Source: Patescibacteria group bacterium
GTDB taxonomy: Bacteria > Patescibacteriota > Minisyncoccia > Phycocordibacterales > BOKC01
Direction of reading: 5' to 3'
DNA length: 64,000 nucleotides
NCBI GenBank assembly: GCA_016860785.1
Contig: BOKC01000003.1
Coordinates: forward strand, 1-64,000
Positions 5,011 to 7,543 of the stretch are shown one piece after another. Position numbers and translations under genes: made by a program. Each line of letters opens with the position of its first letter. Position 1 is the first letter of the stretch. The notes below the pieces were generated by a model. That model was not told where the DNA came from, did not search any database, and saw only the letters and a program-made list of their open reading frames with translations.

Positions 5011-5436
5011 TTAATCCGACGACTGGCTTATAGTAAGACTAGAGCGATGACCTGGATGGAAACGACAGGTAACCAAGGTGTTTTCGATGACTTTTTCTGC
5101 CGAGAAATAAGTTGATTCCCCGGGATTAATTACCTCATCAAAGACAAATTCCTCTACCGTGACGGTGTGGGGAACACTTCCTTCATTATAAAATTTTACT
5201 ATTTCTCCTTTTTTAAAGTTCAGAACATTTCTTGGCATTTCCGGTTCTTTTTGCTTAAAATACATTTCTCCAACAAAAACTAATTTTTCATTTTCCGTTA
5301 AATTATTTTCCAGATTTCTTTCTTTGAATGTTTGATTTGGAGCTGAAAATATCTGCAAAAACAGAGTCAAACAAAACAAAATAATCAAAGTCAAAATTAA
5401 CCCAACAAATTTTTTGTCAGAAACTAATTTCGTCAT
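5011..5436 (-). CDS. membrane-anchored cupredoxin (blue copper protein)
   Basis: A 141-residue protein. Residues 10-31 form one hydrophobic anchor, so the rest should lie outside the membrane. A cupredoxin fold follows (about residues 52-137). The copper ligands expected for a type 1 site are visible: His90 (SVPHTVTV), then Cys124 and His127 in TCRFHPGH, with His130 in place of the usual axial Met. Such proteins carry single electrons. The gene overlaps the propeller-cupredoxin gene upstream by 20 bases and abuts miaA downstream, so it is translated with them. Its natural partner is probably the upstream fusion protein. Confidence 0.85.
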   Translation of the reverse strand: MTKLVSDKKFVGLILTLIILFCLTLFLQIFSAPNQTFKERNLENNLTENEKLVFVGEMYFKQKEPEMPRNVLNFKKGEIVKFYNEGSVPHTVTVEEFVFDEVINPGESTYFSAEKVIENTLVTCRFHPGHRSSLTISQSSD

Positions 5437-7543
5437 AAGGGTTTGGTATTACCAAAATTCCATTGCCTCCCCATTGATTTTCACCAAGAGGAATAAAACC
5501 AACTGTTTCTAATGTATCTAAGTCAATTATGCCAACAGCGCGGGCAAATTTATTGGAAAAGTATCCATAATATCCGCCACCTGATTTTTTGCCAAAGATA
5601 ATGCCGTGAGCGCCGGCTGCCGCTGGAATGGTTTTTTCAACCTCAAATCTTTCTAGGGAAATTATACTGATGTCGGCTGTGCCGGTGTTTGCGACAAAAA
5701 CATATTTTCCGGTCGGTTCTGGAATGGCCCAAATTGGGAAAGTTCCGACCTCCACATCTTTTACTATTTCCATTTTTTCCAAATCAATAAACCTAACTTT
5801 GTTTTCAAGGAGAAGACTTACCATTGCGTATTTTCCATCATTGGTAATCTGTGTGGCTAGAGGTAAACCTGGCGCTTCAAAGGTCGCCACTATTTCTTCT
5901 TTTTCAAGGTCAATTATGTTTATTTCCTCTGCTAAAGTAGCGGCGACACTCATCCACTTTCCAGAAGGGTCAATCCAAACACCATGTGGTCCGAATGAGG
6001 TTGGAATTTCTTCTAGAACGTTCAGTTCGTAATCAGTAATAATAATTTGCGTTTCGTTATTTATCGTCCAGTAAACCCTCTCTTTCTTGGGGTGAACAAA
6101 AACGTGAGCCGGCGCATTACCAAGCGGAAGGTTTTTTAAAACCTCTTTTGTTTCTGCGTCTATTTTTGTCACAATATTATGATGCCACTGGGTTTGGAAA
6201 ATGAATTTGTTATCCGGAGTATTCCAAAGATTGTGAGGGTTATTAAAATCATGGTCTTTGATTATATTTTTGATTTCCCAAGTCTCGGCATCTATAACGG
6301 TTATTGTTCCTGGATGTCTTTGTCCAGGGACTATTTCAAACTGGGTATCAACCCAAATTTCTCCAATTCCCGGAGTTTTCGGCAAAACCATTAAATTTTG
6401 ATCAAGTTTTTCTTTTGGCGGCCAGAGTGATTCTACTGGAGATTTTTTACCAACAGCGATTATTCCTTTCATATATGGATGGGTAGGACAGAGATATTCG
6501 TAAATTCCTTCTTTAGTAAATTTAAAAGAAAATTCGTTTTTATCTTCAATGTGGCCTATTGGTCTAAAGCCACTAGAAAAAATTTCTGGTCCAGAGATCG
6601 CCAGTATCGGGTGGGTGTGGATATGCTTGTAATTGTCGCCACCATTCTCTTCGTGAGCGTTTATTTTTTTTAAAAAAATCGATTCAAGAGTATTTCTTAG
6701 GTGACGGTCGTTTTCTGATTTATTTGTATTTTTGCAATGTTTCCAAATGACGGTATCTCCTTTTTTTATTTCTAAAACTTCAGGATGGAACCATGGCGGA
6801 ATTTCATTTATACAAACATAATAATTTTTGTCGGAAGTAGCAAAAGGTTTTGTGATTAAGACAGCTGATAAAATAACAAGTAAAACAAGCGCGCTAGAGA
6901 TTATTTTTTCGGTTTTGTTTTTGTTACCGCTATTAGGGGGATTTGGATTTATGTTTTTAGCATTAGCTTTTTTTTGTTCGTTTTTATTTTGTAGTTTAAA
7001 GGAAAAAACAAAATATCCCCCGGTAATCGCCAAGAGAACAGCTAAAACGTAGATATTTATCCAGACGAAATATGGCATAGAAAACTGCTTTAACATCGCA
7101 AAAATAAAAGTACTATACCAAGAGGCGACCGAAATTCCACCCGCCGAAACTAAAAGTATGAATTTATTACCTAAGGATTTTTTGTTTAGTTTTTTACCGA
7201 CTGATTTTGACAAGAAAGGCAGAATAATAGAATGGAAGACCACACCGTTTGTTATTATCACACCAACAATTGTCAGTTTTGCTAAAAATCGGGGATTAGA
7301 CAGAAGCGGTATACTGCCTGTTGTGACGTGTGAATAAATTAAAAATCCCGCTCCCGAAATGACCAAGATAGAAATTCCAGCCCACATCAACCTCGACAAA
7401 GTTTTTAACAAGTTCAATTCGTCATCTGTAATTTTTTTGTCTTTTAGACTTCTAAAAAATAGGGCATCGGATGCCGTGGCGCCACCAATGCCGATAGCAA
7501 ATCCCAAGAGATGTAGGATTCTCAAAATCAAATAAATATCCAT
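5417..7543 (-). CDS. membrane-cupredoxin-beta-propeller fusion protein
   Basis: A 708-residue protein in three parts. Residues 1-235 have about six membrane spans (4-24, 53-75, 86-108, 126-150, 156-182, 213-233), resembling CopD/DUF2269-type domains. Residues 240-365 form a cupredoxin: candidate ligands are Cys352, His355 and Met358 in LCPTHPYM, plus a His in the HIHTHP cluster (307-311). Residues 390-708 form a YVTN-type propeller. Several blades carry a His in a similar place: NPHNLW, QWHHN, APAHVF, FGPHGVW and GAHGII. A His-lined propeller is how nitrous-oxide reductase holds its CuZ cluster, and methanethiol oxidase is also a His-bearing propeller. There is no CxxCH haem motif. I infer a periplasmic or cell-surface copper enzyme. 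The substrate is unknown. Respiratory-type proteins are rare in these fermentative organisms. Confidence 0.8.
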   Translation of the reverse strand: MDIYLILRILHLLGFAIGIGGATASDALFFRSLKDKKITDDELNLLKTLSRLMWAGISILVISGAGFLIYSHVTTGSIPLLSNPRFLAKLTIVGVIITNGVVFHSIILPFLSKSVGKKLNKKSLGNKFILLVSAGGISVASWYSTFIFAMLKQFSMPYFVWINIYVLAVLLAITGGYFVFSFKLQNKNEQKKANAKNINPNPPNSGNKNKTEKIISSALVLLVILSAVLITKPFATSDKNYYVCINEIPPWFHPEVLEIKKGDTVIWKHCKNTNKSENDRHLRNTLESIFLKKINAHEENGGDNYKHIHTHPILAISGPEIFSSGFRPIGHIEDKNEFSFKFTKEGIYEYLCPTHPYMKGIIAVGKKSPVESLWPPKEKLDQNLMVLPKTPGIGEIWVDTQFEIVPGQRHPGTITVIDAETWEIKNIIKDHDFNNPHNLWNTPDNKFIFQTQWHHNIVTKIDAETKEVLKNLPLGNAPAHVFVHPKKERVYWTINNETQIIITDYELNVLEEIPTSFGPHGVWIDPSGKWMSVAATLAEEINIIDLEKEEIVATFEAPGLPLATQITNDGKYAMVSLLLENKVRFIDLEKMEIVKDVEVGTFPIWAIPEPTGKYVFVANTGTADISIISLERFEVEKTIPAAAGAHGIIFGKKSGGGYYGYFSNKFARAVGIIDLDTLETVGFIPLGENQWGGNGILVIPNPYDEISF

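Follow-up and report, generated by a model that had tools for sequence, protein, structure and literature searches.

Near the start of the window, which here means the whole 64,000-nucleotide stretch of Patescibacteria DNA that was analysed, two overlapping genes encode a 708-residue fusion of a membrane domain, a cupredoxin and a seven-bladed propeller, and a 141-residue cupredoxin-like partner. The fusion is probably not a nitrous-oxide reductase but a redox protein, of a kind so far undescribed, that handles copper. We favor, with a probability of about one half, a reading in which the pair forms a membrane-anchored extracytoplasmic copper unit for copper homeostasis, with a four-histidine copper site in the propeller wired to the type 1 site of the cupredoxin. 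This reading is based on the invariance of the type 1 ligands and of four propeller histidines, the strand positions of the latter, the copper genes neighboring relatives of the fusion and the fact that no oxidases were detected in the host. Weighing against it are the Paceibacter gene pair itself and several relatives, none of which has copper-gene neighbors, and a bias of the plasmid-borne relatives toward resistance loci. The features on which the argument draws are the following.

5417-7543, minus strand: gene of the 708-residue fusion, which joins a membrane domain to a cupredoxin and a seven-bladed propeller, from the reading of the ORF
6839-7543, minus strand: six-span membrane domain, residues 1-235; weak DUF2214 match, below cut-off
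6446-6838, minus strand: type 1 copper (cupredoxin) domain, amicyanin/CuNIR-like, residues 236-366, from profile matches
6611-6613, minus strand: H311, first of the four ligands of the type 1 site, identical in all 5 fusion proteins
6488-6490, minus strand: C352, cysteine ligand of the type 1 site, identical in all 5 fusion proteins
6479-6481, minus strand: H355, second histidine ligand of the type 1 site, identical in all 5 fusion proteins
6470-6472, minus strand: M358, axial ligand of the type 1 site, identical in all 5 fusion proteins
5438-6388, minus strand: seven-bladed YVTN/YncE-type propeller with velcro closure, residues 386-702 (Pfam, AF2 model, Foldseek)
6233-6235, minus strand: H437 (PHN), innermost strand of blade 1; His in 16/16; strand 201-206 of the model
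6104-6106, minus strand: H480 (AHV), innermost strand of blade 2; His in 15/16; strand 243-248 of the model
5984-5986, minus strand: H520 (PHG), innermost strand of blade 3; His in 15/16; aligns with a CuZ ligand of NosZ
5606-5608, minus strand: H646 (AHG), innermost strand of blade 6; His in 15/16; strand 410-417 of the model
5417-5436, minus strand: 20 bases shared by the fusion gene and the 141-residue gene; same layout in the second Paceibacter genome
5011-5436, minus strand: 141-residue protein, one membrane helix and a cupredoxin-like domain; weak cupredoxin matches
5047-5169, minus strand: region of H90, C124, H127 and H130 of the 141-residue protein, ligand-type residues

The coordinates, lengths and 20-base overlap of the two reading frames given in the initial annotation (5417-7543, 708 residues; 5011-5436, 141 residues; both on the minus strand) proved exact, and the overlap is likely to bring about translational coupling. 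The pair is directly followed by miaA, and a tRNA-Leu gene lies upstream. The same three-gene string of fusion, 141-residue gene and miaA occurs in a second Paceibacter genome (L001, a Candidatus Paceibacter MAG), where the pair maps at 8001-10115/10099-10521 and overlaps likewise. The two fusion proteins share 73% identity, with a dN of 0.18 (0.10 for the propeller alone) against a saturated dS, which in this comparison of two genomes marks the fusion as a genuine protein, maintained by strong purifying selection. A promoter scan at the locus returned no more matches than were found in shuffles.

Hydropathy places six membrane spans within residues 1-238, in agreement with the approximate count first proposed. 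Since the loops that follow spans 1, 3 and 5 are positively charged, the N-terminus and both C-terminal domains are predicted to lie outside the cell. Paceibacterales commonly carry paralogues of the membrane domain, either free-standing or joined to a VKOR-like domain; the arrangement behind a VKOR-like domain is seen in the host's own genome (contig C6, 33526-34620) and at four other loci (L008, L016, L026 and L030), suggestive of a general redox-linked membrane module. A role as a haem b carrier is not claimed for this domain, in which H11 of the first helix is invariant across the 8 aligned sequences but H104 is not. As originally noted, the fusion protein carries no haem motif, CxxCH being absent throughout its length.

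The profile of the fused cupredoxin matches the C-terminal domain of the CuNIR 6hbe (E 4e-17) and amicyanins (E about 1e-10), with weaker matches to amicyanin/Copper-bind families in Pfam and NCBIfam. The domain presents the His...Cys-x2-His-x2-Met arrangement of a type 1 site; to the Cys352, His355 and Met358 recognized from the start, H311 is now added as the fourth ligand. In the AlphaFold model (mean pLDDT 53.7, only two sequences), this part of the protein is of low confidence. An assignment of the fusion as NirK was rejected, as only its cupredoxin part matches and no Cu-oxidase_3 domain was found in the genome.

The propeller scores 55.7 bits against PF21783 (cut-off 27.1), aligns with 1l0q in Foldseek (E 4e-21, TM 0.64) and is modelled as seven four-stranded blades, most of which have a pLDDT of about 60-93; by our own reading, the list of strands in the model would correspond to a velcro-closed seven-blade pattern. 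All five histidine motifs pointed out in the initial annotation are present. Four of them (PHN437, AHV480, PHG520 and AHG646) make up the conserved set, whereas HHN454-455 was ruled out as part of the site, its two histidines being replaced by FD in three more distant fusion proteins and not kept elsewhere. In an alignment of 16 propellers with a median pairwise identity of 28%, columns 437, 480, 520 and 646 hold histidine in 16, 15, 15 and 15 sequences, respectively, while the best column in 2000 shuffles of the histidine positions reached 6/16; the other nearly invariant columns are Gly, Pro, Asp, Asn or Val. Two outcomes that would have spoken against a site, histidines lying on the outside of the fold or failing to converge and homologues losing them or the Cys352 motif, did not materialize: homologues retain the four motifs and that of Cys352, and the AlphaFold model puts each of the four histidines at the start of an innermost strand, at position 2 or 3 of the strand that opens its blade (blades 1, 2, 3 and 6). 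Six of the seven blades of NosZ give a histidine to CuZ (PMC11573801), and with this precedent the topology of the model, rather than its coordinates, suggests that the four side chains may converge near one point. A fold search against viral structures returned generic propellers only, and the viral contigs searched held no relative.

The description of the 141-residue protein as a second anchored cupredoxin stands in part. A low-confidence model shows a helix (residues 6-31) followed by eight strands, and H90, C124 and H127 are kept in both Paceibacter genomes; in both, however, His130 occupies the position of the axial Met, and the cupredoxin fold is unconfirmed, the model being too poor for a fold assignment. 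Should the fold hold, the protein would be a candidate for an unusual copper site.

Full cupredoxin-propeller proteins were found in 4 Patescibacteria genomes (G000, G001, G286 and G465) among about 870 searched, and one further such protein is encoded on a Methylocystis rosea plasmid (WP_245435095, annotated as a hypothetical protein). In these five proteins, which come from Paceibacter, two other Patescibacteria lineages and Methylocystis and form one clade (support 100/100), the type 1 ligands and H437, H480, H520 and H646 are invariant. Their patchy distribution, together with an identity of 57% between fusion proteins of two different classes, suggests that the gene may have spread by lateral transfer. 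All four histidines also recur in propeller-only relatives on plasmids of Cryobacterium, Deinococcus, Alkalihalophilus, Polaromonas, Enterococcus, Paracoccus, Pseudorhizobium and Mycolicibacterium, and in a second, propeller-only protein of Methylocystis; the propellers of Candidatus Manganitrophus and Sphingomonas keep three and two of them, respectively, and two related PQQ-cluster propellers used as controls keep none. Counting cupredoxin-propeller and propeller-only homologues, the pattern extends over six phyla, the spread beyond Patescibacteria being taken from plasmid records. No model specific to the four-His propeller was found in Pfam or NCBIfam, and its occurrence in copper loci was not described in the limited literature searched, which is no proof of absence.

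Many of these relatives are found among genes of copper handling. The locus of G286 comprises genes for DoxX, a secreted His-motif protein, the cupredoxin-propeller, a CcdA/DsbD-like protein, a CsoR-like protein and a Cu-ATPase, the last two named by sequence inspection. The propeller genes are accompanied by MCO, thioredoxin, CcdA, DUF3105 and P-ATPase genes in Cryobacterium; by CueP, Cu-ATPase and DUF305 genes in Deinococcus; by genes for a P-ATPase, a copper-binding protein, a cupredoxin, a copper oxidase and CopK in Polaromonas; by a copper oxidase gene in Paracoccus; and by MCO, CueR and P-ATPase genes in Pseudorhizobium. The Methylocystis gene adjoins that of a two-domain multicopper oxidase, with CusA-type efflux, NnrS and SirB2 genes nearby. 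No copper gene lies within about 5 kb of the pair in the window, of its counterpart in L001 or of the G465, Alkalihalophilus, Enterococcus and Mycolicibacterium genes.

Several proteins met in these surveys deserve mention in their own right. A secreted protein of about 213 residues with conserved TAHIH...GPHTHEE(K/R)N...HWHD motifs is encoded beside the cupredoxin-propeller gene in two distant Patescibacteria (L067, 6958-7596; L068, 7918-8556); no Pfam or NCBIfam family matches the L067 copy, and the protein is a candidate for copper binding. The CcdA/DsbD-like membrane protein of the copper operon at L067 (9014-10186) ends in an ATP-cone domain, an odd combination. On a Paracoccus yeei plasmid (L112, 4344-5852), DUF305 is fused to a four-His propeller, with a copper oxidase adjoining.

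The 574-kb host genome, 91.6% complete, holds a separate copper-efflux operon (contig C4, 22135-28945) encoding VKOR-like, DsbA-like and DUF411-like proteins, a CPH-type P-ATPase, and DUF305-like and CsoR-like proteins, the names being based on inspection of the sequences and on BLAST matches to the G286 genes. Contig C8 (13840-14289) encodes another small, secreted cupredoxin-like protein, with the motif YCAVPGHRESGQ, bringing the cupredoxin-like proteins of this genome to three. At this level of completeness, COX1, COX2, cytochrome bd oxidase, NirK/multicopper oxidase (Cu-oxidase_3) and NosL gave no match. The initial annotation had considered a copper redox unit unexpected in CPR bacteria, which are thought to lack respiration. 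The surprise is lessened by a gene context suggestive of copper homeostasis and by earlier reports of NirK and cupredoxins from some Parcubacteria (PMC5581439). CPR bacteria with copper proteins are thus nothing new; the architecture described here appears to be.

In the mechanism that we propose, the six helices would anchor the copper unit to the cell membrane with its copper domains outside. The four histidines would together bind copper at a single site where the propeller channel opens, with which the fused type 1 site may exchange electrons, and the 141-residue partner would pass copper or electrons onward. The unit would serve copper homeostasis, for example through Cu(I) oxidation and safe handling outside the membrane, in a bacterium in which no multicopper oxidase was detected, and is not thought to be respiratory. 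For the fusion, domain anatomy, conservation and gene context are observed, and metal identity, electron transfer and substrate are inferred. A bolder proposal is put forward tentatively: the four-His propeller would hold a copper active site of a new type, present in several phyla and, in this clade, wired to a built-in type 1 site as a new class of copper oxidoreductase, at work here in a CPR bacterium in which no respiratory oxidase was detected; propellers of this type are so far filed as 'YncE/lactonase/cytochrome D1-like' only.

The main rival to a copper redox unit is a chaperone or buffer without catalysis, in which copper is stored in, or delivered by, the propeller and the cupredoxin transfers the metal ion rather than electrons. 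The copper-locus neighborhoods of relatives would suit such a protein, as would the His-rich site of the 141-residue partner and the weak matches of some propeller homologues to the zinc metallochaperone AztD; these matches, however, fall far below the AztD cut-off, and a complete type 1 motif of His-Cys-His-Met, as retained here, typically marks an electron-transfer protein. We regard this alternative as rather unlikely.

We give little credence to a distant, domain-swapped N2O reductase with a CuZ-like cluster acting in detoxification or respiration. The best NCBIfam match of the fusion is indeed L-NosZ (NF052460, 108.5 bits), the clade III, lactonase-type enzyme (He et al. 2025, Nature 646:152, as cited in PMC13033781), but the cut-off of that model is 700 bits and related copper-locus YVTN propellers from several phyla score 90-140 bits against it. 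The match is therefore undiagnostic and was rejected as a sign of N2O reduction. The profile also reaches NosZ structures at E 3e-8, and H520 aligns with a CuZ ligand both in an equal-length HMM match to 1qni and in an hhalign alignment to S. meliloti NosZ (ligands as listed in PMC11573801). Against this, A563 occupies the position of the CuZ ligand H378 of NosZ, four histidines are conserved rather than seven, and the cupredoxin precedes the propeller and bears a single Cys motif, not CuA, whose C-x3-C-x3-H motif is absent from all ORFs of the host genome. Scores against TIGR04246 and TIGR04244 are 38 and 12 bits (cut-off 625), and neither NosL nor an oxidase was matched in the host. An identity as clade I or II NosZ was rejected on these grounds, and one as L-NosZ on its score. 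What endures of the earlier proposal is a unit devoted to copper that combines a type 1 site with a propeller lined by histidines, and its domain order was rightly said to differ from that of NosZ; equivalence to CuZ is not supported, although H520 aligns with one of its ligands, and the likeness to SELENBP/methanethiol oxidase was not borne out, no SBP56 match being found in Pfam or NCBIfam up to E = 1.

Equally improbable in our estimation is another small-molecule copper oxidoreductase of the thiocyanate dehydrogenase type, with three coppers in the propeller tunnel and the cupredoxin as built-in electron acceptor. The enzyme of Thioalkalivibrio paradoxus has the same fold, with copper bound in the tunnel through the center of its seven-bladed propeller (PMC9456337), and NnrS and SirB2 genes lie near the Methylocystis locus; the profile matches to its chains are nevertheless weak (E about 0.09) and indistinguishable from general propeller similarity, and the Patescibacteria loci showed no neighboring sulfur or nitrogen pathway genes. 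Scaffolding is a common role of YVTN/WD-type propellers, yet a propeller with structural or metal-free histidines that merely docks other copper proteins is very improbable given four near-invariant histidines at equivalent blade positions at 28% identity, where the other such columns are Gly, Pro, Asp, Asn or Val, and given the copper-gene neighborhoods of relatives.

If correct, the copper redox reading would add a further kind of copper-in-propeller protein to NosZ and thiocyanate dehydrogenase, account for unassigned propeller genes on copper-resistance plasmids and provide a defined copper redox protein in ultra-small bacteria thought to be without redox machinery.

Among known systems, NosZ shares with the fusion a seven-bladed propeller with histidines on its innermost strands and a cupredoxin domain, but has the propeller first and the CuA domain last, with 7 His and 4 Cu, where the fusion shows the opposite order, 4 conserved His and a type 1 copper site. 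In thiocyanate dehydrogenase an external cytochrome c, not a fused cupredoxin, serves as acceptor (PMC9456337), and the link in sequence to the fusion is weak. The NirK with an extra C-terminal cupredoxin (PDB 6hbe) supplies the best-scoring solved CuNIR relative of the fusion's cupredoxin, but is a copper nitrite reductase without a propeller. A SOD-propeller fusion of Deinococcus was dismissed as a precedent, having six blades and calcium (PMC12362111). In the proteins of Methylocystis rosea, G286 and G465, as in the fusion, a cupredoxin with all type 1 ligands precedes a propeller with all four histidines, but the six-span membrane domain is missing. The YncE/YVTN 'lactonase-fold' or 'cytochrome D1 domain-containing' proteins of the Cryobacterium, Deinococcus, Polaromonas, Paracoccus and Pseudorhizobium copper-resistance loci have the same type of propeller and the four histidines, but neither a fused cupredoxin nor a membrane domain, one of them being fused to DUF305 instead.
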